Shown here in pieces: positions 4,200 through 57,075 of a stretch of 64,000 nucleotides of DNA. Position 1 is the stretch's first letter; every line of letters begins with the position of its first letter. The DNA lies in NCBI GenBank assembly GCA_018292915.2, contig JACVVK020000089.1, positions 361,501-425,500 of the forward strand. The letters are read 5' to 3'. Position numbers and translations under genes: made by a program. Source of the stretch: Batillaria attramentaria. Taxonomy: Eukaryota > Mollusca > Gastropoda > Batillariidae. Under the pieces are notes generated by a model. The model was given only the letters and a program-made list of their open reading frames with translations, had not been told where the DNA came from and made no database searches.

Positions 4200-4598
4200 C
4201 CGGTCGGTGGTCTAGTGGTTAAGAGACTTGTTACCAATGCGAGAGGTCAGGGGCCGGTTCGAGCCCCACTCGGGGCAAAGAATTTTTCCTTCTCGTATGT
4301 GGCACCGTTCATTCGGGCCGATCGTCGGGGGTTCTCTCCGGGTACTCCGGCTTCCTCCCCCTCTGCTTTGGAAATGTTCAGCCCACCAAGTTTGAAAAAT
4401 AAATGCATATCTAAATTCCGAAATTTAAATAGCTGAGCTGACCCTTCGCACCACGTGATTGTAATACGTTTATGTCCTGTGTGTGAGAGAATGCGTGTGA
4501 TTCACGTGAGCGTGCGTGTTGGGTTTAGCTCGCGGCGCTTTGAGCCAAAATATTTGGGATAAAGCGCCTATATTAATGCGATTATTATTATTATTATC
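4200..4598 (+). repeat. SINE-B copy 1 (tRNA-derived SINE)
   Basis: The tRNA-like head has an A-box-like TGGTCTAGTGG and a B-box-like GGTTCGAGCCC. A body of about 300 bp is shared nearly base for base with copies at 21098 and 42908. The 3' end reads AAAGCGCCTATATTAAT followed by (ATT)n. Pol III boxes and a simple-repeat tail are the usual SINE layout. The head is not a functional tRNA because the cloverleaf runs straight into the body. Confidence 0.88.
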
Positions 4599-5629
4599 TT
4601 TGCTTAGCCGGCCAGCTCATGTTATGTTTCGGAACAGTTTAGCTCGTGAGTGCTCCTGTACACTCGAAATACTCTGTCTTCATGATACGTACAGCTCTTA
4701 ATGCGATACAATGTTGCTTTACACTAACGCAAGCGGTCCGCGAATATAAAAATTCTTCGACTCAGTGTTGTCAGTTACAGTACTCATTGTCAGTGCTCGC
4801 CGCGTCGTCGAGTACGCCTCTGTTGGCTCAGTGCCAGCATTAGGTAGAGACGCTGTCACTGTCCAACGAAAACAGCTCAGACCGATCTATAAGCGTAAAA
4901 AGGTTGCATTAGTATCTTGGGGAGATTTTGAAATGTTTCTACTGTGGGTCACCACCGGCCGGCGACCGGCTGTGCAGCATTTGCATGCAGTTTTGGCGAC
5001 ATTGCACTGAGGTCCTTCGCGTATAATGTCCCCGCCCGGCGCCGACGCTTATCACCACACACTCAGATAAGAAGCGCTATCTCTGCAGTTGTTATTTTGA
5101 TCCCCGAAGATAGACGCACGACTGAGAGGCCGCTGAGTCATTAATTTCCCCTTTCCTGGATTCCAGAAAAAAATCCACTGAGCCATCGGAGCTACCCTGA
5201 ATTAGGTATCAGTTTTAGCCGAAAACTTGGGACTGGGTAAAGTTGTTTTGTTCTGTTGTTAATCTCTTAGCATGTTTTGAGCCTGTTGGTATCTTGTAGC
5301 TCTAAAAGCAGCTTACGTCAGCATAATCTCGTCAGTTGACTGAAGAAACTGACCTGGTGCGTTTCGGACTTTGCCCAACCAGTAAACCGCCTAAAAGCCA
5401 GACTGGTGCTTTATCATCACACCCCTTACCAATCTCCGCAGTTATGACTACCCCCCTTCAATAATACCTCCTGCTTCTCTTTCATCAACTGACCACTAGC
5501 GCCCTCTAGCCAAGTAGCTGTGCATATACCGCAGACAAGACAGATGAGCTACCGCGAATAGCGTCCTTGTCTATCATCTGAATCCATTCAGTCTGTGGAC
5601 GAACAGAGAGAGGTGGATGCTTTAGAGAG
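4599..5629. other. Non-coding, no gene recognised
   Basis: I see no conserved coding segment, repeat copy or structured element here. Confidence 0.5.
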
Positions 5630-5819
5630 TGGGTGGGTGGCTGGATGTTTGAGGGTTTTCACCCTTTTCCACCACATATGGGTGATATTAAAGATTGCGC
5701 CCCCCCGCCCCCCCCCCCCCCCATCAAAGCCAGCACAAATATTTCGCCCCAGCCGGGAATCGAACTCAGACCCGAGCACTGAAAGACCAACGCTTTAAGG
5801 CTCGAGTGTCCCGGCTCCC
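5630..5819 (-). repeat. SINE-A copy, minus
   Basis: It matches the SINE-A layout read on the minus strand: degenerate tRNA head (5750-5819), CCAAATATTTGTGCTGGC-like box, GATATCACCC-like box, and a terminal CACCCACCC-type end. A poly-C expansion (5700-5722) replaces the box that usually reads GGGGCAACGATGAAAAA. Confidence 0.85.
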
Positions 5820-6650
5820 TTTAGAGATTGGGGGGGGGGGGGGGGGAGTGAAGGTCTGTTTGCAGTGGGCGGAGGTGGAATGCAGCCTGTTCCAGCACTG
5901 TCGACTACCGTCCATGCGATGAAGTTTCCTCCAATCCTTTCCCTCCTGCGAAGTGATGCCAAGCCCTCTGTCCATTCAGGGTTGTTGTTGTTGGTTTAAA
6001 AAAAAAAAAAATTTAAAAGAAGCGCCCATGAGCCCAGAGACGGAGCATGTATACGCATAGATACATGCTCTCTGAGCCCAGCCCGGACGCTAGCAGGGGA
6101 GACAGTTGAGGAAAAAAAGAAGTGTAGAAAGTATGACACAACTGCCTTCGGTCAGCAGTGAAAACAACAGTGTGATCAGTTCTGCGATAGCTGGTGCTGA
6201 CCCAAGCTAATCGCTTGCGGACCGCCTCATGCAAGGTAGTGTTGGCGTCTCAGTCGTCCATAGACTGCATTGGCAACGCATACCCATAATGCAGCGGGGG
6301 CCTGGCCCCCACTTATCGGCTGAATTTATCTCAGCCGCAACCCACATCAGCTTCTTCCCGGTTCTCGGCAGATTTATTAATTAACCAGGCGGCTAATGGA
6401 CTGATTACCCGGATGCTTGTGCCAGGGTGGCGGTGTTGGCTGCGTGCACGGAGTAGAGCTGGGTCAGCTTACCGGTCAGCGAAACCAGATCGACAGTTCT
6501 GTCCGCCGTGATTCGATTAGGCCGCACCGGAACTGTGGTGTCGTGTGCTCACGAAGGCCGGGCGCACCGAGGGTGCACCGGCCTTGGTGGCTGAGTGGTA
6601 CTGATTCGGAACGGATACATCTTATGACCCATCTTCAGTCCGACATGATT
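5820..6650. other. Non-coding, no gene recognised
   Basis: A G-run lies at about 5830-5846 and an A-run at about 5999-6012. No coding or repeat match was recognised up to the SINE-D insertion. Confidence 0.5.
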
Positions 6651-7002
6651 CTGGGGGAGTCGGTGGCTCAACGGTTTGAGCGCTGGACTGACTCGAGATC
6701 GAAAGGTCCCGGGTTCGAATCCCGACAGGGCTAAAAATCTGTTCAGGGCCTTTTTCACGTTGCCCCTCTTCCACTGACTGTGAACTGGATCTGTTTGTGT
6801 AACTTGTCCATTACAGTCAAGGATACATAAAATGTGGCCGACCTGGCAGTTTGACTGGATCGAATAAGTGTCCAGCTGGACTGTTCAGTTAGAGTAGCTA
6901 TCCCCTCCCCCTAAACCTGCCTTAAAAAGGCTTAGGTTCGTCTCCAATCACCGGCCTCGCTGTGGCGTGGGACGATAAACCTCCGCTAACCAACCAAACC
7001 AA
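6651..7002 (+). repeat. SINE-D, complete, with 10-bp target duplication
   Basis: The tRNA-like head (about 6656-6733) has TGGCTCAACGG as A-box and GGGTTCGAATCCC as B-box. A 270-bp body follows, ending in an AACCAACCAAACCAA-type tail. The element is flanked by the direct repeat CGACATGATT at 6641-6650 and 7003-7012, which fixes its ends and shows insertion by target-primed retrotransposition. Confidence 0.9.
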
Positions 7003-17994: not shown

Positions 17995-18736
17995 CTCTTA
18001 AAAGACACTGAAACTGCACACACACACACAACGGTCACTATAATTACCGACGTTTTAGACAGGCATTCGTGTGCGACGCAAGCAGGACCCAAAGGCCACA
18101 CGGTTCCCGGCTATTGTTTTTTACGCCGTTCTTAGTGTGTGTGCGTGCGTCGCGTCCAGCAGGTCCAACAAATCACTTTTATTCATGGCCCAGACACGCC
18201 GCTCCTTCACCGGGCCCCTGCGACAAATTGGTGGGCATGCAACCTTTGGCTCGGGTTCCTTTTTTTTTTTTTTTTTTGGTTACCGTCTTTATAGTGTACT
18301 CTAGCAGGTAGTATTGGTATTCGGTGCTTTGCCGTATACGAGAATAGCTTTTTGTTGTTAGTCACCTCCAGGTGCACGAACACGTGCGGTCATATTACAG
18401 TGCGCTACACTAGCCGAGAACACCTTGATGGGAAAGCATTAGGAGAGAGCTGAAAGCTCGGGATATCGTAACAACAGAGACAAATTAGAGGCCATTTTGA
18501 GATTTAGTGTTTCTTAAAGGGGCTAATCAGTGTTACCATGTTTGTGTCAGTCCAAGGATCGTTCTGAGCTGTTTTCATGGTATTAATCATCACACCACTT
18601 AGACACCTGGACAGTGACAGCGTCTCAGCCGGTGTAATGCTGGCACTGCCGAGCAAATAGCAGCAGCGCACCACTGTGATGGCGCGTTTACCACACTGAG
18701 CGCTCCAGTAGTGTAACAACAGTCGTAAAATTTAAA

Positions 18737-19042: not shown

Positions 19043-19299
19043 TTTCGACCGCTCGCGCAACGTGTAAACAACATCTGTGGCATTAAGAGTTGTACCGCGG
19101 CCAATCATCAAGATAGAGTAATTCGAGCATACAGGCGCACTCACGAGCGAAACTGTTCCGGGGCCAAAACATGTTGGCTTAGTAAAGGTAGCGTCAGTAC
19201 GAGAAAGCTCAGTGAAAACTCAGGATATATAAGCAGGTTAGAGGTCATTACGTGCTTTAGGATTTCTTTCTTACGCAGTGTACAAATCTGTTATTGTAG

Positions 19300-19913
19300 C
19301 ATTCTCGTTCCGGGGGCCTAACGCTACTCTTGGCCCCCGCGACGACGCCAACTCGGGCTAACCGAGAACGGGCTGAGCTTAGTAATGCCTAAGAAGGAAA
19401 AAAAAAATCAAACTACTCGGTGACAAGGAAAGCGGACAGTTGCGAACAACTTTGAGGTCCCCTTGTTATTTCAAAGTGTGCACAGAAGCAGTGAAACTGT
19501 CGCATTCACCACTGAGCACAGTACATTCTCGGCTTGTTTCGAGATTTTTACCTGCATGAGTAGTCCCCCGTGCATACATAGACCCGCAGCAAGCAATCAT
19601 TTTTTTTGCGGCAGCTTAGTGCTCCGCCGCGAAAAATGCGTGCTTGTTGCGGTAAGGGAGATTACTCATGCAGGTAATAATCTCGAAACAGGCCGAGAAT
19701 GTACTGGTGCTGGTGAATGCGACAGTTTTCACCGCTTCTGTGCACACTGTGAAATAACACGGGGACCTCAAAGATGTTCGCAACTGTCCACTTTCCTTGT
19801 CACCGAGTAGTTTGATTTTTTTCTTTCTTAGGCATTACTAAGCTCAGCCCGGTCTCGGTTAGCCCGAGTTGGCGTCTTGCCAAGAGTAGCGTTAGGTCCC
19901 CGGAACGGGAATG
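19300..19913. mobile_element. Long-hairpin (foldback) DNA element with 9-bp target duplication
   Basis: Two arms of about 280 bp are near-perfect inverted complements: 19300-19580 against 19635-19913. The short loop of about 50 bp contains the inverted words TTTTGCGGC and GCCGCGAAAA. The termini read CATTCTCGTTCCGG and CCGGAACGGGAATG. The 9-mer TTATTGTAG lies directly outside both ends (19291-19299 and 19914-19922), as expected of a target-site duplication. Very long terminal inverted repeats and 9-bp duplications are typical of Mutator-like elements, so a non-autonomous MULE is my best guess. It encodes nothing. A second copy begins at 63784. Confidence 0.85.
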
Positions 19914-19983
19914 TTATTGTAGTGATCGAGCCCTTGTATAGTAATACTGCACCAGTTAGTAGCACCTACTGTGACTGGCGGTG

Positions 19984-20195: not shown

Positions 20196-21010
20196 CTTGT
20201 CTCTTCCTCCTCAAGCACTATAGCCGCCTGGCCTGATAACATCAGACACATATGCTCGGGCTAGATGGTCCATTGTTTTCCGTCCGTTTTGGATGCGGTG
20301 TAAATATAGCTTTCGGTGTGTGTGAAAACGTAGAGGCGACGTTTTATGTTTGTCTGTGCGTTTGAGGGTGCTTCTCTTTTGATCAACAGAAGTAGAGTCA
20401 GTTCAGGTTGTCCGTCCCTTTGTTCTACCCACTGCGCCTCCGTGCACACAATAACACAAAGCTGACTAAATGCAGCAATCAAAATAAATTACATTTTCAC
20501 ACCGCAAGACGATTAAAGTCCGGATACTAACTAGAGAAAAAAAATAAAACAACTCCCACTTTTCTTGTCTCTTCCTCCTCAAGCACTATAGCCTGGCCTG
20601 ATAACATCAGACACATACGCTCGGGCTAGCTGGTCCATTGTTTCTTGTCTCTTCCTCCTCAAGCACTATAACCTGGCCTGATAACATCAGACACATACGC
20701 TCGGGCTAGCTGGTCCATTCAGTGTTTTCCGTTTTGGAAGCGGTGTAGATATAGCTCAGTTCGGTGTGTGTGAAAACGTACAGACGGCGTTTTATGTTCA
20801 GTTGTCTGTGCATTTGAGGGTGCTTCTCTTTTGATCAACAGAGATAGAGTTAAGGTTGTCCGTCCCTTCGTTCTACCCACCGCTCCTCCGTGCACACACT
20901 GAATAACACAAAGCTAACTAAATGCAGCAATTAAAATAAATTACATTTACACACCGCAAAACGACTCTGATTAAAGTTCGGAAAACAAGAGAAAAAAATA
21001 AAACAACTCC
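20196..21010. repeat. Tandem duplication, about 366-bp units plus an 80-bp partial unit
   Basis: The word CTTGTCTCTTCCTCCTCAAG starts units at 20196, 20564 and 20644. The first and third run in parallel to about 20560 and 21010, both ending near AAAACAACTCCCA. The middle unit stops after 80 bp at GGTCCATTG. No protein is encoded. The two long units differ by several 4-bp CAGT/ACTG insertions (see findings). Confidence 0.88.
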
Positions 21011-21097
21011 CAGTTTTTCGAAGATTACACTGCCGGCATAGACAGTATGAACGCAACCGGCCATTTGTATTTGTAAATGTAATTTATTTTGATTAGG

Positions 21098-22737: not shown

Positions 22738-22850
22738 CAGGGTGATATCAAAGACGCGACAACGAGGAAAAAGTCAGCACAAATCAGTTGTTGGCTCCAA
22801 ACCGCGATTCAGCCTGGTCGAACTCACGACCCTCACTGACCAGCATTGCC
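22738..22850 (-). repeat. SINE-A copy, diverged, minus
   Basis: GGTGATATCAAAGACGCGAC, AACGAGGAAAAAGTCAGCAC and GTCGAACTCACGACCCTCAC match SINE-A boxes in order. Extra bases are inserted, including TCAGT at 22784-22788. Confidence 0.7.
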
Positions 22851-25235: not shown

Positions 25236-25545
25236 CAGGGCCCGCATCAGTGTAAAAGTCGGTTTAGGGAGTTTAACCGCGGGTTAGAGTCTAACCTCGA
25301 ACTAAACTAGCTCTAGGGTTAAATTTTCTGGGTTTTTTTTGTTTTGTTTTGTTTTGTTTTAAATCGGGAAGCGGGTCCATTCCAGCAAGGTCAGTGCCTA
25401 AGCCGCGATAGAAGGATTTTTGTCTTTCTTTCTTCCCTTCCTTTTTTAAAAAATTTAATTTTGTTTTGGGGTTTCTTTTGTCCTAGTCTGGGTTAGGCCC
25501 GTAGCCGTGGGTTAAATTAACCTCGAGTTTTACATACGGACCCTG
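25236..25545. mobile_element. Inverted-repeat element with CAGGG/CCCTG ends (copy 1)
   Basis: It starts CAGGGCCCGCATCAGTGTAA and ends TTTTACATACGGACCCTG, a short imperfect terminal inverted repeat. The interior segment GTCTAACCTCGAACTAAACT up to CCATTCCAGCAAGGT recurs in inverse orientation at 54642-54794. CAGGG ends are typical of hAT-type MITEs, but no 8-bp target duplication is evident. Confidence 0.6.
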
Positions 25546-27782: not shown

Positions 27783-27967
27783 GTTTAAGCAGGTTTATTG
27801 CAATACTGACAAGTCGTTCAAGTAAACAGATAGTGAGCATAAAACAAGCGGCACCGCTTATGTTAATGCTCAGTGGGAAACTGAAAGTACATATTGACAG
27901 CATTGAAATGGCAGACCGGTAGACTGGTAAGTAATTATGATAGATTATGATAGATTAAAACTACAGA

Positions 27968-31173: not shown

Positions 31174-31383
31174 CTTCTTGGCCCCGACTGTCTGGAACTC
31201 CTTGCCAATCGAACTCCGCCTTCAGCCTTCATTGCCCATGTTTAAATCTCATCTGAAGACTTTTCTTTACCGTCAAGCTTTTGTTGCTTAACTCCTGCTG
31301 ACGCCCGGTTTGCTTATGTGTACGTTTAGTCGCCTGATGTCGCTGCATTTGCCACTGAAATTGGATGTTAGAGCGTGTGAAAA

Positions 31384-32271: not shown

Positions 32272-32395
32272 ACGTTCGAATCCCGGCTTGAGCCAAACAT
32301 TTCTCGCGTTATCAGTTTCTCGTAACCCCGTCTTTGGTATCACCCTTATGAGGTGGACTGAAAAGGACGTTAAACCCACAAATAACTAACCACAG
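32268..32395 (+). repeat. SINE-A copy, 5'-truncated and diverged
   Basis: CGTTCGAATCCCGGCTTGAG up to GTCTTTGGTATCACCC and GACGTTAAACCCACAAAT match SINE-A. GTGG and AAAAGG are separated by an extra ACTG (ACTGA at 32357-32361). A (TGTC)n run takes the place of the head. Confidence 0.8.
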
Positions 32396-36000: not shown

Positions 36001-36165
36001 ACATAGATGGGGCAACGAGGAAATAAACCAGCACAATTGTTTCCACTGATTCCCAGCCGAGATTCGAACTCATGGCCTGAGTACTGACAGTCTTTAGTTC
36101 CCACTATATATACGGGTGACATCAAACACGGTGCACCGAGAAAAGGGAAAGGTCTGCATTGCCGG
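36001..36165 (-). repeat. SINE-A copy, strongly diverged, minus
   Basis: GGGGCAACGAGGAAATAAAC, CAGCCGAGATTCGAACTCAT and a second partial GGTGACATCAAACACGGTGC follow directly on the copy before. It is probably an older element into which the 35829 copy inserted. Confidence 0.6.
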
Positions 36166-38888
36166 ATTTTCGCACTTGGATGTGTCGTTTTAACACGTTG
36201 CGACCGACTGAACCGCACACGGCGATTACCCGTGCTTCCGGTTCTCAGTCTTGCCACCACATCTGTCTTTTCCTTATATTATTTTTGCGTATCAGAGTGT
36301 GGCACGGTGAGATAGCGTTCTAACTTGACTCAGTCAAGATTTACTGAATTTGCAGTCTTTCATACTAGGGTTTGCTTGGCCGGGTCGAGGAATAGCCGGT
36401 CTCTGCATAACTCACTTCAGTTGGTACGAACTGAGGTAACACGTTTTGGGCCCCTAAATTGACAGGTGCAGATGTCGATGATTTGCGATTGCTCAGTGAA
36501 ACGTGACTGAAGTAGTACATCTTTGCGCGAGCTCCTAGAAACAGTTGCTAGGCTGGGCCCACAAGCGGTGCCGCTTCCTTCCATTGCAGGCGGCATTGCC
36601 AGCTGTGCCGCGACATTTGCACGTTCTATACCGTAGTCAGACTGAATTGAGTAAACTTGCGCACTGGCCCTAATAACCTGCGCTGTACGCCACAAAACAG
36701 GTTACAGACCGGTATTAGCTTCCGGGTCATGTAGTAAGAACTCGGCTAAATATAGTCGAAAATCTTTGCCCCTTTTAAAATTTGTGTGCTGAGTAAAAAA
36801 TGACAATCTGATGCTTTTTGTTGGCTTTGTAAACAAGTTTCATGCCAGGTAATAGTAAAATTAGGGAAAAATGAGGCTGGCTTGTGGACTATTTGTCAGT
36901 ATTCATGCGCGGCTGGCACACTGAGGAGCCAGCAGACGACCGTGGAATGGGGGGGTAAGTGGTCGCTGCCAACATTGCAAAAAAAAAAAAAACAAAAAAA
37001 ACGGAATATAGGAATTTGTTGAAACTGATTTACTCTACACATGGGTCTATGGCTGCCTGATTTTTGTGATTTTTTCGATGAATGTAAAAGCATTTCTAGG
37101 GTGTCGTCTGCAACGTTGTGTGTAAGAGGAATATAATTATAGCGTTTTCCTCCAAATTTGCATCTCTGTTACGTAGCCCAAAGCACGTGATTCTGTGCGA
37201 TGGACGCTTAATTGAGTCGCTGAATGTTACCGATCTGCCAAGACTGTGCGGATGCTGTTTAGTCTTTGGCGTTAGGTACTGACGATCTGCAGCTGTGTCC
37301 GGACTTTCACGTCTTTGTTTCCTTTTCCTTTTCTTTTCTTTTTTCTTTTCTTTTGTTGTTGTTGCCAAATTCACTGGCCTGTCTGTACCTCGAGAACGGC
37401 CCGCCGGTGCGGCTTTAGTGTTTGTAATCAGTGCTGATGGAAACAGTTTATCCCGTCACAAATCAGTCAGGCAGATCGCCAGTACGTGTTTACACCACAG
37501 CAAAGACTTCTCTTCCGGCGTCCACAATTATCTTCATTTGCTTTCTGGCTCCCGAGGAAGCCGTGTGTGTACAGTAAACCAATGAAGAAACCAGAAGACT
37601 GGTCGGCAAATCAAACGCACATGCGCAACACCCTCACAAAAATGTTCTGGTCTCAGAAACACTTGCCTCAGTCAGAGTAAAACATGGGTAAAACGGGGCG
37701 ATTATGCTTATGATGTCTTCCAAAAGATTTAAAGGATATGATATTCCTGCAAACCGCTATTACTTACGCTCTGCGCCGGCATGCACGAGTGAACTATAGG
37801 AATGCGTTTTGAATTTGACTCGGAATCATTGTTGTCTGCTTGCTCCAGCACACTTCAAACTTTTAAAGGTCATGCTGGTCCTGTCAGGACAGATAAGAAA
37901 ATATTTTTTAACATGGCGGCCTCCGTCCTATAAAAACACTATGATACAATCGTGTACAATGATTCGGAACTGGACGAGCCGGACTTGAACAGTAACTGAG
38001 GTCAAGTTCTTTTTTCACAATCACTTGAAGCCCGGATACAGACTGAAGATTTAAATGAAGATTTCTTGACAGCTACCCATGTTGGATTTACAACGCCAAA
38101 ACCATACCTTGCTAGCATTGTGGGTGTTTTATATTTGCGGAGCGCTTCTACCGGCATTGATGTGGCAATGATTTGTTGCTAACTGGTTTATTGCGCCCAG
38201 GGGATGATAAGTTGCAATATTTGCTGTATATGCGCTTAGTATTTATGTTTGTTTTACCTAGTTGTAATTATTTGTTTTCTACGGGTTTTTATTTTTAGTA
38301 ATCGGGAGTTCGAGAAATTTGCATGTAGGTGCAGCGTCTCCTGGATGTCCTAGGTTAATACTGCCCCGTAGGCCAGTATGCATTATTTTGTCCAACGTTA
38401 CATTTTTTTTTTCATGTAGTGCAGGCACATTTAGCCGCGATTTAGTCTTTGGTGCTTGCGTGGTTTAAATCCCGAAAAAACTGACTCACTCACTCTACCG
38501 TCATGAGGAAAAAGGGCTTAGGCGCCTATCAAATCCACGGCGCTTAGCTTCTTTTTTCTGACGATGGTAGACACGTTTACAGTAATTCCTAGCAGAACCT
38601 CATTCAGTGTAGTTGGCTGTGTAGTGACTGTGACGTACACTGATACGTATATGTGTATAGTTAGGATCGTAAAGAGTCGATTCTCGTGGTGCTGGAATTT
38701 GTTGTTTATTTTTCGTGCGCAGACAACATTCCAGTCAGACAGACAAAATAAACTTGGCCGCGATTACATACGGACGGCAAAATCTCCAGATCTGGAATGT
38801 CAATAATTATCGTGTGCGTTGGCTGCGTAATTCGTAGCCACCGTCTGTGTGTTTTATGGTGAATTAGATTGCGTAGTATTGAGTGACA
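36166..38888. other. Non-coding, no gene recognised
   Basis: About 2.7 kb with few repeats. No exon with recognisable protein similarity was found on either strand. A short palindromic stretch around GGCGCCTATC and CACGGCGCTTAG lies at 38520-38550. Confidence 0.45.
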
Positions 38889-39036: not shown

Positions 39037-39467
39037 AGGTATGATATTGGTACCGTCAGGTACAGTTTCAGTGAAGAATAACCTGTACAGATTGTTGGTT
39101 CTGTCTAGAGTTTGTTACAACTGTATAATAATCAACTCTTCAGTTGGAAGTTTTTGTGTCCGAAATGCACTTTTCTGTAGACAGTCATCTAAAAACAAAC
39201 AAACAAACAAACAAACAAACAAACGCGTTTGGTATCGTATTTTTCTGCGAACAATGAAATTTTGGGCTTGATCTCTGCTCACTGTGGAATGGCAAAGGGG
39301 CCTAAGTGATTATCAAATCCAAGACGCTTAGGCACTTCTGTCTGACCCAACTCAGTTCAGAGGTGATGTCCATCGTTTAGTGTAGCCGAAATGTCATTCA
39401 AGAAGAGCTTTGTATACATACTAGACCTATGTGTATTCAGCATATCAGAACTGAAAGTCTATGAATA

Positions 39468-39670: not shown

Positions 39671-41003
39671 ATACCTCTCCATATATTTCGTAAAGTTCAA
39701 GGACGTCCAGAATAGAATGTGTCACACGATGACATAAAGCCCCGTGAAATTGTCGGAATGGAAAGATGGGACCGACCGAGCACACGCAAGTTTCCAAACT
39801 GATCTCACTTTCTGATTGAGAGGTCATATCACTTCCACCCTATTTATGGTTCTCATTGTTCATGCACGTGCTTGTGAATATGCATCAGGCATGTACGAGC
39901 ACGCGCTACGTGCCAAGAGACCGATGGGGAAGATTACAGCCAACTGCCTGGTCAGCCAATCAGGTGGTGGCACGAGAACGAGGCTGCCGACAGACGCAAA
40001 TCTCCCTGCCGTGTCCGGCGTGTTCGCAAATATGCACGCTTAAGATGACCAACGTGAATGACAGATTATGGTAATCAAGCAGTTATCGCATCCGGTACAT
40101 GTCCGGCTGAGAAGCTACTCGTATGATGACAGTATGCTGGGGAGAGACGGGGTATGACAACGATGAGAGCCACAGAGAACCAACCCCCCCCCCCCCCCCA
40201 CCGGAATCGAAGTAGGCCATACGTCATGTGAGCTTTATCATCCCTACTAACTAAAGTACCGCCCAAGCTGCTTCTGTTTAGCCCTCATCCCCGGACTTTT
40301 ATTTTATGAACATAACCATACTCCTAATTGGCTGGTACCCAAGAAACCCCACCCCCACAGTTTATCTGCGCACCTAAAACGCTAATAGTGTCCACATGGG
40401 CAGGCTTTTTGGTAATCGAAATTCGGTGAGGGGGAAGGAGGAAGGGAGCGGGGGAAGGGAGCGGGGGGTGTTTGTACCATTATTTTTTTACGGTGATGTT
40501 TACTTACCTCCTCTTCGTAAGAACGCACACAGCTCGCTTCGACTGTGACGTCACCGCCATCTAGTCTCAGCCACATTCTGGAAAACTGACGGAAAAGCGC
40601 CATTCATCTTCCGGTGTCCTTTTCCATGTCTTTGGCAATTTTGATGTATAATCTATAGATGTATAGATGTGAAATCTGTTAACAACACGCTAAAGATGTA
40701 CATCTAAACCGGTGATAATCAAACTAAGCTCACGTTTCCTGGGAACTACTTTGCGGATGTGATCAATTGTTGACTGACGTAGTGCTTTGGTTCCATTTCG
40801 GTTGTTTCGCGCAGCGGAGAGGTTTTGGCTGCTTACGAGTCACTAACACGATCGCAATGCACGGATCACTGCGGATCGACCTACTTGCGGGTAGTGATTA
40901 TCAGTTATGATGGAGATAAGATGAGATGCGAAATCGGCGCGTGCGGTTCGGTATGAACGTTCTACGAAACCAAACAGACCTATAACACAGTTTCTGGGAA
41001 ATA
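39671..41003. other. Non-coding, no gene recognised
   Basis: A C-run lies at about 40184-40199 and purine-rich GGGGAAGGGAGC repeats at about 40425-40470. No gene seen. Confidence 0.5.
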
Positions 41004-42907: not shown

Positions 42908-43309
42908 GGCGGTCGGTGGTCTAGTGGTTAAGACTTAGTCTCAGTCACCAATGCGAAAGGTCAGGTTCGAGTCCCACTCGGAGCGAAGAATTTTTCTTTC
43001 TCTTATGTGGCGCCTTTCATTCGGGCCGACCGCCGGGGGTTCTCTCCGGGTACTCCGGCTTCCTCCCCCTCTGCTTTGGAAATGTTCAGCTCACAAAAAT
43101 AAAAAATAAATGCAATTCTACAATTTCCGAAACTTAAATTACTGAGCTGGCCCTTCGCACCACGTGATTGTAATGTGTTCATGTCCAGTGTGTGAGAGAA
43201 TGCGTGTGATTTACGTGAGCGTGCTTGTTGGTCGCGGCGCTTTGAGCCAAATATTTGGGATAAAGCGCATATATTAATGAAATTATTATTATTATTATCA
43301 TTATTATTC
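42908..43309 (+). repeat. SINE-B copy 3
   Basis: Full-length SINE-B. The head holds an extra segment with TCAGT (42941-42945) between GACTTAG and CACCAATGCG. The 3' end AAAGCGCATATATTAATG is followed by (ATT)n. Confidence 0.9.
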
Positions 43310-44456: not shown

Positions 44457-44634
44457 GGGGAGTCGGGATAGCAGAAGGTAGAGCGTTGGACATACAATGT
44501 TCGGGTCGTGAGTTCGAATCCCGGAGGTTGGGGCCAAATATTTGTGCTGGTCTTTTGTCTCGTTGCCCCGTCAGTCTGTTACATAACCCATACGTGGTGG
44601 AAAAGGACTTTGAACTCCCAAACACCCACCCACG
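44457..44634 (+). repeat. SINE-A copy, plus
   Basis: Full-length copy. GTTGCCCCGTCAGTCTGTTA shows the 4-bp CAGT insertion relative to the consensus GTTGCCCCGTCTTTGA. Confidence 0.9.
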
Positions 44635-45053: not shown

Positions 45054-45135
45054 CTATGTTACTATGTTCGAGTAACTAGAACGTGATAGTTTGCATGGGT
45101 GCATTTTTTTCACAAACGCCTGTTAGCAAGCTGGC

Positions 45136-45190
45136 ATGTATGTATGTTTATATGTATGTATATATGTATGTATGTTTATATGTGAGTATG
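45136..45190. repeat. (TATG)n microsatellite at mariner target
   Basis: TATG/TATA-rich units rich in TA dinucleotides, the site into which the mariner inserted. Its open frame runs into the transposase but is not part of it. Confidence 0.8.
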
Positions 45191-45192
45191 TA

Positions 45193-46518
45193 CGAGGGTT
45201 GTTCAACGAGAATTGGAAAATGGCATGTAACGTGACTTCTAAGCAAGATACAGAAAATATATTTATACCACAAGAAATTTCAGCCTTTCCTTTATTCACA
45301 TGCAAAAAAGAAATCCGATGCGATGAAGCATTTAAGAGTATGACGTCATTTAAAAACTATACGAAACAGCTGAGCCTGAAAAATGTGGAGGGCACGAAGG
45401 AGCAATACCGTTTCTACATTTTCACAAGGCTGAAGCTCGGAGACAAACCGAAGAAAATCCACGATGATTTACAGGTAGTCTATGGGGCCAATTGTGTTCC
45501 ATATAGCACGATGTACAAATGGATTCAAGCATTTCAAGCTGAGGAATCGAGCAGTAAGCCAGGTATGGGTCCAACACGACCTTTTCCAGCTCGGAACGAG
45601 CAAAACATTGCCCTTGTAGAGAGACTGGTTGCTGAAGATCCACATTCAACTATCAGAGAATTGAGCGAGACATCTGGCGTCTCTGTTGGTACCATTCACA
45701 GCATCTTACATGAAGATCTTCACATGCGAAAACTGGCTGCCCGATGGGTACCTCATCTCTTAAGTGAAGATCAGAAGAAACGGCGAGTTGAATGTTCGTG
45801 TCAGTTGTTGAATGACTTTGAACCGAATGGACCAAAACGGCTGTGTGGTATAGTCACTGGTGATGAAACATGGCTCTGGTTTTATGGCATTCCCAACAAG
45901 CGTTGCAACAGGGCGTGGGTGGGTCCTTATGGCGATCGACCAGTTGTGTTGAGACAAGGTTTTCAAAGCCGGAAGCGACTTTCTTCCATTTTTTTTAATG
46001 CACAAGGAACTGTGGCAATCGATATTCTGCCTGAGAAGACAACAATCAATGCAACATACTACACGGGAGTTGTGCTTCCCAAAGTTGTCAAGGAAGTGTG
46101 CAATCAGCGCCCAACCGTTGGCTCCTCAAGAACCTTGCTTCTGCATGACAATGCAGCTGCCCACAAAGCCAAGGTCACCACGACCTTTCTATCTGACCGA
46201 GGAATCCAGATTTTGGACCACCCACCCTACAGTCCAGACCTTGCACCATGCGACTTCTTGCTTTTCCCTATCCTGAAAGAGAGACTCGCTGGCCAGAAGT
46301 TTGACCGTGTACAGGACCTCGCAAAAGCAGTAAAATCACAGCTCGATGCCATACCCAAGGAGGACTACCAGGGGGCGCTTTTTGCGTGGCGCAGAAGGCT
46401 GGAAAAGTGTGTACGGGTCAAGGGGGAATACTTCGAGGGGATGTGAAGATAAGAAGTTGGAGCTATGTGTAAAACCAGAGTTACATAGCTGTTTCCAATT
46501 CCCATTGAACAACCCTCG
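45193..46518 (+). mobile_element. Complete mariner element, 1,326 bp
   Basis: Terminal inverted repeats of 24 bp (45193-45216 and 46495-46518) begin CGAGGGTTGTTCAA and agree at 22 of 24 positions. A TA lies immediately outside each end (45191-45192, 46519-46520), as expected of the TA target duplication of mariner/Tc1 elements. The length is that of canonical mariners (about 1.3 kb), and one uninterrupted transposase frame fills it. The near-identical ends and open frame suggest a recent arrival. Confidence 0.97.
45220..46446 (+). CDS. Mariner transposase, D,D34D type, apparently intact
   Basis: It catalyses cut-and-paste transposition of its own element. From ATG 45220 it has 408 residues. 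A later in-frame ATG at 45340 would give 368, nearer the usual length of about 345-355, so the start is uncertain. Residues about 55-165 form the N-terminal DNA-binding region with two helix-turn-helix units (e.g. YSTMYKWIQAF at 95-105, TIRELSETSGVSVGTIHSIL at 144-163). WVPHLL (176-181) is the family linker motif. The catalytic aspartates are D215 in GDETW, D310 in LLHDNAAAH and D345 in YSPDLAPCDF, with exactly 34 residues between the last two, as in true mariners. No stop or frameshift interrupts it. The frame upstream of 45193 is flanking microsatellite. Whether it is expressed cannot be seen. Confidence 0.95.
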   Translation: MACNVTSKQDTENIFIPQEISAFPLFTCKKEIRCDEAFKSMTSFKNYTKQLSLKNVEGTKEQYRFYIFTRLKLGDKPKKIHDDLQVVYGANCVPYSTMYKWIQAFQAEESSSKPGMGPTRPFPARNEQNIALVERLVAEDPHSTIRELSETSGVSVGTIHSILHEDLHMRKLAARWVPHLLSEDQKKRRVECSCQLLNDFEPNGPKRLCGIVTGDETWLWFYGIPNKRCNRAWVGPYGDRPVVLRQGFQSRKRLSSIFFNAQGTVAIDILPEKTTINATYYTGVVLPKVVKEVCNQRPTVGSSRTLLLHDNAAAHKAKVTTTFLSDRGIQILDHPPYSPDLAPCDFLLFPILKERLAGQKFDRVQDLAKAVKSQLDAIPKEDYQGALFAWRRRLEKCVRVKGEYFEGM

Positions 46519-52666: not shown

Positions 52667-54448
52667 ATGCCATTCATCCTATATTTGATCGTCGCGATGA
52701 TCGCATCAGGTGATGCTGGTAGGGTCAGGAGACAAGACCCTGCCATCGCAAGTCTGCAAAACCTTGTCCAGCAGCAGGCGTCCACGATTCAGACGCTGGA
52801 AGCAAAGATGGCGGCTTTGGAGGCGGACATGAAGAGTATTCAGTCCAGTACCGCGCTTCTCAACATCGACCTTAGTTCTCTGACCAAAAATGTTGGGTCC
52901 ATGAGGAGCCAGCTTTTCAAGCAAGGTAAGGAAGCTAGTCGAATCTCTCGAAACATTGCGAAGTAAGGAAATTAGTAGAATCACACAGAAATCTGTCTTT
53001 TTTTTTTTCAGAGCGAGTACCGAAGTCAGTTTTCATTTTGATTAATTTAACTTGTATTTAAGGATGCATTGCATTGGATTGGAGATTCCCCCCCCCCTCC
53101 CTCCCTCTCCGACGATTTACGCTGGCTAAATCTTGCATGATTTGCGTTTTCCAGTGCGAAATATTCTGTACTTTGTGGCATTTCGGCATTTTCCAGTGTG
53201 ATGTCTGTCAGTTCACATTTCCATACAGTCTAGCATGGTTGTCTTTTCGTCGTACCTTTTTTCAGAAGTGCTGTAAAACCCCTTTCAGAAAATTCGGATT
53301 GCTTTCTCTTGGGAAAGCGTGTCGCCGCGGTACAGTGCCGCCTACCTACCCGGCCGTTTTCGAATTTTACTGGGGGAGGAAAACCGGAGGGACCGGCTCA
53401 GTTCCCGCATGTGAAATGCTGTCATTGTGCAGGTGTCATAATGCTACGATGTCGGACGTTACCGAAAGAGCTCAGAACACCAGCCCCCGTAGTGTAGTGG
53501 TTAGCACTTCGGACCAAGGACCGGGAGACCCGGGTTCGAATCCCAGCCGAGGCAAGCGGATTTTTCTTGCCTAGGTCGGCTTCTACCCGGAGCGGGTGCG
53601 CTATGGGCCCAGTGGGGAGGCTGTTGCCACACAGTCGAGATTCACCCACTTCACGGGTGCGACTTTGGGGGTGCTTCCCTTGGTATGACACGTCTTATGA
53701 TGTGGATGATTACACGGCCGGCACCGCTGGTGCCGTAGTTCCCGGGCCTGGTTAATGCCAGGATATTTATGACAGGAAGCGTGGAATGCGGCCCTGTCCC
53801 GCAGTCCCAAACCACACGGACCTCCATCTTACCATCATCCTCATCTCCATCATCATGCAGAATAAAAATTGCCCCAGCTTCCGAGCCCTCCGTGGATTCC
53901 ACCCATTACCTGGGAGGAACACCACTGGAGCTGGCAAATAGTTGGGGCAGCCAAAAAAAAAAAAAAAAAATTGATGGAAGAAAGGCCTTGAACTCACACA
54001 GTTTACAATCCGTTTACGTCTTCTTCTTTTTCCAGTCGCCTTCAGCGCTCACTACAGTCACTACACCGTGGATGCAGGGAGCGACGCCCCGCTAAAGTTT
54101 GACGACGTCGTGACCAACCTGGCCGGCGGCTACGACCCGGCCACCGGCATCTTCACAGCTCCGACCCCCGGGGTCTACCTCTTCTACCTGCACATCATCA
54201 ATGACAACGTCCACCCGAGGAATGAAGTCGGCATCTACAGAAACGGGTCCCTGATAGCCGAGGCGCACGTGGAGGGGCCGGAAGTGGAGTACGATCGAGA
54301 TTCAGCCGCTGTTATCGTGCATCTTGCTGCTGGAGACACCGTGTACGCCAAGCACAACGGGGGCTTCGCTACCTTTCTGGACGGGGAGTGGCGGTGTTAT
54401 TTCACTGGTGTTCTTGTGACGGCCGATGAGGTCAAAACCTTTAAATGA
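52667..54448 (+). CDS. Secreted coiled-coil C1q-domain protein, gene 1 (two exons)
   Basis: A likely soluble, trimer-forming C1q-domain protein of the mollusc type, probably binding ligands outside the cell. Exon 1 is 52667-52925 with donor CAAG/GTAAGG. Exon 2 is 54036-54448 with acceptor TTTTTCCAG/TCGCC. The intron is phase 1 and 1,110 bp long. The join gives 223 residues in one frame. Residues 1-17 form a hydrophobic signal peptide (MPFILYLIVAM), then RVRR at 19-22, a furin-like site. About 25-85 is a heptad-like coiled coil with LVQQQASTIQTLEAKM and no collagen repeats. From VAFSAHYS at 87 to FTGVLV at 209-214 lies one complete C1q domain, with GGYDPATGIFTAP (117-129), GVYLF (132-136) and SAAVIVHLAAGDTVYA. 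It is paralogous to gene 2 about 1.3 kb downstream. The splice sites are predicted from sequence only. Confidence 0.93.
53483..53970 (+). repeat. SINE-C, complete, within the C1q gene 1 intron
   Basis: The tRNA-like head has TAGTGTAGTGGTTAGCAC (A-box) and GGGTTCGAATCCC (B-box) at 53485-53556. A body of about 390 bp follows, with a poly-A tail at about 53953-53970. A partial inverse copy is at 10205. It sits just before the acceptor of the intron, sense to the gene. Confidence 0.85.
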
Positions 54449-55756: not shown

Positions 55757-57075
55757 ATGCACGTTCTCAGATTCGTTCAGTTTTTATGCACGGCCGCCAT
55801 TTTCCCCATGCATGCTGCAAAAGTGAAGAGATCCATTGATCAGAATCATCCGGACGCCTACGTCAAAAGCGTCGAAGATCTGAAGGTCCTTGTCCAGCAA
55901 CAGGCGATGACCATAGGCAGTCTGCAGTCAGACTTGGTCACTGTGAAGACGGAGCTGACCTCTTTGCAGACCAGGCTGGCACAGCAAGAGTCGAGTTGTG
56001 AGAGAAGAGTGACCACGCTGAGTTCGGAAGTGTCTGATCTCTCAAGCCGTGTCAACTCTGGCACTAGTCGACATCCAAAACAAGGTGAGTAACTTGATTG
56101 TTGTTGTTGTTGATTCTTGTTCTTTTTCTGCTTCTTATCATTATTTTCATTAGCAGCTATGTACATTCATGTGGCAATGGCCTACAGCTGGGGCGCGGGA
56201 GACAGTATGGTGTTCATATGGGACAATTTCAAAGGCATTACCTCCTAATTCCCCTCCCCGCCCCCTCTTCCACTAACCTTAAAACACACAGTTCTCCGAG
56301 CTTTAAAATTTCGGAAGTACCTGATCTATCAAGCCGTGTCAACTCTGGGACTAGTCGACATCCCAAACTAGGTGAGTAACTGACGCGAGTGTAATGCCAA
56401 CGTGACTGTTGTAGTTGTTGTTGATTCTAGTTATTCTTCTGCTTCTCATCATTGTTCTCATTAGCAGCTATGCACATTCATGTGGCAATGGCATACACCT
56501 GGGGCGCGGGGGACAGTATGGGATTCACAAGGGACAATCTAAAAGGCATTACCTCCTGATCGCCCCCACCCCACCCCACGCCACCCCAATCCCCCCACCA
56601 CTAACCTTACAACACACAGTTCTCCGAGCTTCAGAATCTCTTGTTAGTAGTGAGGTCTCTTCTGGTTTCAGTTGCCTTCAGCGCTCACTACAGTCACTAC
56701 GGCGTGCAAGTCAACGGCGATGCCGTGCTGAAGTTCAACGCGGTCCCTACAAACATCGGAGGCGGTTACAACTCCGGCACGGGCAAGTTCACCGCGCCAG
56801 TCTCAGGCGTCTACCTCTTCCTCCTGCACATCATCAACGGCGATGGTGACCAGAAGATCGAGGTGGACCTCGTGAAGTCCGGAACACCTATCGGCAAGGC
56901 CATCGCTGAGGGCAGTGAGCAGAGGTACGACAAAGCTTCTGCGGCTGCTACGGTGCACCTCTACGCTGGCGATACGGTGTACGCCGCGCACTCTCACCTG
57001 TTCCTGGGGGCTGTCTTGGATGGAGGATGGCTGTGTTCTTTCACTGGCGTTCTCGTGACACCAGACGTTGCTTAG
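55757..57075 (+). CDS. Secreted coiled-coil C1q-domain protein, gene 2 (two exons)
   Basis: A paralogue of gene 1 with the same plan and probable role as a secreted multimeric recognition protein. Exon 1 is 55757-56084 (donor CAAG/GTGAGT) and exon 2 is 56672-57075 (acceptor GGTTTCAG/TTGCC), joined in phase 1, giving 243 residues. I chose ATG 55757 rather than the in-frame 55682 because it starts a typical signal peptide (MHVLRFVQFLCTAAIF). KVKR at about 22-25 is a furin-like site matching RVRR of gene 1. Coiled coil at about 38-95, with LVQQQAMTIGSLQSDL closely matching gene 1. The C1q domain starts at V110 (VAFSAHYS) and is complete, with GGGYNSGTGKFTAP, GVYLFLLHI, ASAAATVHLYAGDTVYA and a final SFTGVLVTPDVA before the stop. 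The intron contains a duplicated exon end, and the 3' flank repeats the last 13 codons many times. Confidence 0.93.
56035..56640 (+). repeat. 287-bp tandem duplication of exon-1 end plus intron
   Basis: The donor context at 56085 is repeated at 56372, a period of 287 bp. The last 50 bases or so of exon 1 (GTGTCTGATCTCTCAAGCCG, then TGTCAACTCTGG-ACTAGTCG) and about 230 bases of intron are copied. The copy has an acceptor-like ACACACAG at 56284-56291 after a pyrimidine stretch, and a donor GTGAGT at 56372. It could therefore define an 80-nt exon (56292-56371). Joined in phase 1, that exon would end in an in-frame TAG. Confidence 0.85.

Follow-up and report, generated by a model that had tools for sequence, protein, structure and literature searches.

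The window, meaning the whole stretch of 64,000 nucleotides analysed here (C89:361501-425500 of Batillaria attramentaria), contains two C1q-domain exons at 53975-54445 and 56605-57072 on the forward strand (Pfam C1q, E ~1e-19), with coiled-coil-like frames near them, and one tRNA found with Rfam, where ARAGORN calls one unclassified tRNA. A block at positions 1-39450, delimited by a change point against a flat control word, is rich in TCAGT with C, G or T as the next base (TCAGT[CGT]; 233 sites on both strands vs 65 in the other 24.5 kb). The C1q-domain exons lie in the poor part, and so does a 439-codon open frame at 45127-46443 (+), downstream of the end of the rich block, which matches Pfam DDE_3, Transposase_1 and HTH_48 and is of the mariner transposase type.

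Two long repeat units at 20196-20563 and 20644-21017 differ by extra copies of TCAGT or, on the opposite strand, ACTGA, located at 20398-20402 in the first unit and at 20719-20723, 20756-20760, 20798-20802 and 20898-20902 in the second. A preliminary description had reported these length differences, and a global alignment of the two units shows all five places; at 20756-20760, where TCAGT was said to replace a T, the word is present and the net gain is 3 bp. Self-alignment of the window placed T[CAGT]G inserts (inserted bases bracketed) at 18527-18531 (+) and, within an arm of a long inverted repeat, at 19511-19515 (-), together with T[CAGT]T in a SINE-A-like copy at 22784-22788 (+) and an ACTGA of the CAG class, with a net gain of 3 bp, at 27880-27884 (-). 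The inverted repeat itself occupies 19297-19916, its arms being ~83% identical over ~620 bp. Other inserts are T[CAGT]G at 25247-25251 (+), at 25391-25395 (+) and, in a repeat labelled LINE-like by the preliminary description, at 31354-31358 (-), as well as T[CAGT]C in SINE-A copies at 32357-32361 (-) and, beyond the rich block, at 44571-44575 (+). Alignment with further loci added a pair of neighbouring CAGT-class inserts at 36895-36924. Also beyond the rich block, a TCAGT in a SINE-B copy at 42941-42945 (+) aligns less cleanly as an insert. A second word, G[CCGG]T, is carried by a SINE-B copy at 4252-4257 (+), with 6 extra bases relative to the consensus. Site 36045-36049 has TCAGT/ACTGA, yet no alignment made displays an indel there.

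Recurrence of CAGT-class indels

TCAGT or ACTGA was confirmed exactly at all 13 coordinates named by the preliminary description. The window self-alignment, comprising 219 alignments with matching flanks demanded around each indel, yielded 4-bp indels at 15 separate places, ten of them of the CAGT class and the others AAAA, AATT, AAAG, CCCG and ACGG, one apiece. With the CAGT rotation class making up 4.0% of the 4-mers in the window, 10 of 15 corresponds to P = 2.6e-11, in agreement with the earlier assertion that the choice of a single 4-bp word is non-random. When 29 additional loci from this genome were included, the class accounted for 17 of 54 places (P = 1.9e-11), distributed as 10 in window 1-39450, 1 at 40771, 4 in L018-L019, 1 in L023 and 1 in L029, the last sitting in tandem repeats and followed by A. 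T precedes the insert in all 14 tabulated window events, and the duplicated flank is that single base in nine of them, upholding the proposal that a single T (or A) had become TCAGT (or ACTGA).

An alignment of 34 SINE-A copies contained five CAGT inserts in four copies (window 32273, window 44456, L019:9830 with two, and L023:3883), with one site hit in two copies that lack clear common markers and the other three sites hit in one copy each. The presence of these SINE-A indels in single copies indicates gains rather than losses. Decayed forms were not conspicuous among the 4-bp indels listed for the window and the further loci. In 39 further partial copies of the 20196-21010 repeat, no CAGT insert occurred within the aligned part; at the left edge, L009 starts TCAGTTAAGG.

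Insert spectra, word counts and regional density

SINE-A is one SINE of ~170 bp, and inserts were counted at five fixed sites within it across one genome assembly, by a whole-genome search for SINE-A flanks with any four bases between them, from which the spectrum was read directly. CAGT was the commonest 4-bp insert at three of the sites, spread over dozens of contigs. At GGGT^CGTG, 61 inserts comprised CAGT (34), CCGT (7), CGGT (7), CGAT (6) and the rarer CCGG (2), CGTA (2), ACGT, CGAC and CAAT (1 each). At CCGT^CTTT the search covered inserts of 2-12 bp and returned 193; among the 100 of these matches that were listed, CAGT occurred 45 times, CCGG 17, CCG 5, CGT 4, CGG 4, CT 3, CGAT 2 and CAGG 2, the remainder once each, so that 70 of the 100 listed inserts are 4 bp long, with CAGT first (45/70) and CCGG second (17/70). 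The same stretch is uninterrupted in 34,559 copies, giving an insert in ~0.56% of copies and, with the share among listed matches scaled up, CAGT in ~0.25%. At TTT^GAT, which belongs to this same stretch, GACT made up 41 of 64 inserts, readable as G[ACTG]A or, on the opposite strand, T[CAGT]C, followed by GAAT (5), GCCG (4), GATT (4), GTTT (3), GAGT (2) and five singletons; CAGT on the site's own strand was absent from all 64. The remaining two sites held few inserts, with CAGT in 1/5 at CCCTTAT^GTGG and, at CCCTT^ATGTGG, CAGT in 0/6 and ACTG in 1/6.

Twenty of the 61 GGGT^CGTG copies were fetched, ten with CAGT and ten interrupted otherwise. Judged by eye, the ten CAGT-bearing copies (of 34) carry differing SINE backgrounds, and the insert therefore apparently arose repeatedly. 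Descent within a single SINE subfamily was rejected on the same backgrounds and on the two copies that share an insert site without clear common markers. Tandem duplication of the adjoining four bases, by slippage or topoisomerase, would account for few of the inserts, 1/70 at CCGT^CTTT (CCGT), 7/64 at TTT^GAT and 7/61 at GGGT^CGTG (CGGT).

Counted on both strands of the window, TCAGT occurs 334 times and the other three NCAGT words 97-184 times; the base following TCAGT is A in 36 cases, C in 94, G in 105 and T in 99. Within the window block, TCAGT reaches 2-3x expectation before C, G or T and shows no excess before A (26 vs 24), and GCCGG occurs 12 times before A (9.0 expected) and 25-30 times before each other base (9.4-10.6 expected). 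A strict rule of "not before A" is nevertheless contradicted by G[CCGG]A at two SINE sites and by a raised TCAGTA count in the core block (6 vs 1.6 expected). The double unit TCAGTCAGT numbers 10 vs 2.1 in rich blocks and 5 vs 0.1 in the core. TCAGT and GCCGG can be fitted by one tentative rule, drawn from these two words, in which X is duplicated around C-X'-G to give X-C-X'-G-X. Of the remaining T..T and G..G words examined, most lie at 0.9-1.3x expectation; TCTGT is barely raised in rich blocks (266 vs 226), and two exceptions are also raised there, GGCCG (89 vs 45.6; CpG-corrected, 66.5 vs 42.1) and TTGTT (214.5 vs 139.5). A short-unit tandem array containing CCGGCC at L019 ~600-2490 was excluded from the later rich-block word counts. 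Helitron ends were considered as a source and rejected, A being the least common base before TCAGT. Rarer insert forms include T[CAAGT], T[CAGAGT] and 3-bp CAG or CCG, and at GT^C sites a 3-bp duplication with a single filler base is an alternative reading of the inserts. The 5-bp T[CAAGT] insert was seen at two unlike SINE-A positions (L018:9813 and L087) and may have come, as a longer product, from the process that made the 4-bp inserts.

Per 8 kb along the window, TCAGT[CGT] numbers 54, 40, 47, 47, 46, 20, 20 and 24, with the control word flat; the change point at 39450 has a log-likelihood ratio of 18.7, and density is approximately doubled over 1-39450. If the rich part matched the poor part in density it would hold ~104 sites rather than 233, so the excess is ~1 per 300 bp, and the orientations of the word are intermixed all through the block. 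This regional excess, like the second word CCGG, goes beyond the preliminary description. Among 20 sampled 10-kb stretches, 17 hold 14-32 TCAGT[CGT] per 10 kb and the remaining three, at C89:425501-455500, hold 44, 35 and 65; other contigs were sampled with five stretches of 5 kb, one of which was also high (56), with a high TCAGTA count as well. The densest block, L020 4200-6900 (C89 ~449.7-452.4 kb), lies ~24 kb beyond the window and upstream of an apparent first exon, promoter and exon being judged by eye and the promoter-side dense block being a single case (n = 1). Across L020, TCAGT[CGT] runs at 6, 2, 4, 6, 15, 10, 16, 2, 1 and 3 per kb, and within 4200-6900 TCAGT reaches 5.7x and GCCGG, with no CpG correction, 9.2x expectation. 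CpG is raised ~1.3-1.5x in the block, and CCGG word counts are consequently inflated. CpG content as the cause of the regional pattern was rejected (rho 0.13, P 0.14 over 137 2-kb bins), and window 40-64 kb combines high CpG with few words. Word density was 58.3 per 10 kb near the ten CAGT-bearing SINE copies (59 in 10.1 kb) and 40.9 per 10 kb near the ten otherwise interrupted copies (40 in 9.8 kb). With both words removed, L020 4200-6900 still appears rich in GCCAGT, TGACTT and TGATCA, and more words or nested inserts may therefore exist.

A candidate germline insertion process and its alternatives

Our preferred reading, which we think slightly more likely than not and which is based on one genome assembly, is a germline process of B. 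attramentaria that adds short stretches of DNA, specified in sequence, at single positions. It builds on what was observed: the inserted words and how they recur at fixed SINE sites, the one-base duplication, the regional density and the one dense promoter-side block. Its main product would be T -> TCAGT (A -> ACTGA on the opposite strand) and its second product G -> GCCGG (C -> CCGGC). The likeliest account is probably that breaks in open germline chromatin are joined by an error-prone route, in which we infer the breaks, the germ line, the chromatin and the polymerase. Breaks or nicks would arise mainly in DNA open in germ cells, a putative polymerase with a strong preference for the short addition C-X'-G then X would extend the 3' end at X, and the extended ends would then be joined.

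An artefact is unlikely as the source of the inserts. One of assembly or sequencing limited to some stretches, which we hold to be very improbable, would agree with the abrupt change of density at 39450 in the window and with the inconspicuousness of decayed forms among the 4-bp indels listed, but the mixed orientations throughout the block and the return of the identical insert at fixed sites, across dozens of contigs, speak against it, as does polishing of the assembly with Illumina reads (PMC10382545). The available part of the assembly's description reports 863 contigs and 0.715 Gb, built with FALCON-Unzip from PacBio Sequel reads and polished using Pilon, and it names only PacBio Sequel and Illumina for the assembly (PMC10382545). 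Given those platforms, and the same insert repeated across dozens of SINE copies from different contigs, the suggestion that the word derives from the 454 library key is unsupported. The preliminary description had offered two further causes, and the data favour its unknown mutational or repair process over transposon excision footprints. Tc1/mariner elements target TA, and CAG or CTG may remain in their footprints, flanked by the duplicated target bases. Such words could come from a highly active DNA transposon inserting next to T, with another next to G, whose exit leaves three terminal bases and a one-base duplication; a mariner-like transposase frame is present in the window, and T[CAAGT] and T[CAGAGT] resemble imprecise products. 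We nevertheless consider this quite unlikely, as TCAGTA, expected from a TA target, lacks an excess in the block, TCTGT, which should accompany TCAGT, is scarcely raised, 9/14 events duplicate just one flanking base with no constant longer duplication, and the middle base varies with X, two words obeying one base-dependent rule. T-CTG-T was absent from the 61, 70 and 64 inserts listed at the three SINE-A sites.

Copying from a template by a telomerase-like or other reverse transcriptase, in which one base pairs, four are copied and the product may realign, would explain why X is duplicated and why double units exceed expectation; two words, however, demand two templates, and double units also result from two single events at one place, and we rate this explanation as improbable. 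We are similarly doubtful of ordinary break repair, whether it duplicates a short local sequence and adds one filler base or makes a topoisomerase-type 4-bp duplication. CAGT can be read in this manner as GTC-A-GTC at GT^C sites and as TGA-C-TGA at TTTG^AT, and tandem copies do exist among the TTT^GAT inserts, but most window events have only one base in common with the flank, CCGG at CCGT^CTTT is not a duplication, and the same word appears in unlike contexts. A bolder form of the germline process, which we think unlikely, would involve a dedicated enzyme that takes its own nucleic acid or the broken end as template and writes X-C-X'-G-X where open germline chromatin is broken; very many CAGT and CCGG copies would then have been added and promoters reshaped.

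To our knowledge, insertion mutations are copies of neighbouring DNA, simple-repeat slippage, untemplated filler or mobile elements, and no report of a process such as the preferred one was seen among the titles and abstract openings listed in searches of the open-access literature. If true, a fixed word picked by the flanking base genome-wide would constitute a new mutational signature, one from which the fingerprint of the enzyme could be read, and the process could provide regulatory sequence at promoters and mark DNA that was once open in the germ line. Word counts at fixed SINE-A sites offer a direct genome-wide assay, applicable to other snails.

Several known systems share individual features with the snail inserts. 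Tc1/mariner footprints likewise place C-N-G between duplicated target bases, but at TA and with a two-base duplication, whereas the snail has T or G and one base. In mammals, short interstitial telomeric repeats are added at breaks, also a fixed word, placed at a break site as proposed for the snail and possibly the work of a templating enzyme; the usual metazoan telomere repeat is TTAGGG, from which the snail word differs, and only four bases are added in the snail. Duplications of the topoisomerase II type, which copy the neighbouring four bases, resemble the snail inserts in their 4-bp length and, as may hold for the snail, in their association with active chromatin, although the snail inserts are mostly not neighbour copies. 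In humans, short germline insertions are enriched at regulatory sites open in spermatogonia according to the available part of a 2021 study in Genome Research (PMC8559717), which puts them down to break repair; these are likewise short and, as may also be so in the snail, situated at regulatory DNA, but measure 5-20 bp and are often copies of local motifs, in contrast to the fixed 4-bp word set by the flanking base in the snail. By analogy, the human case as described there (PMC8559717) may serve as a precedent for the place of the snail insertions rather than for their word.
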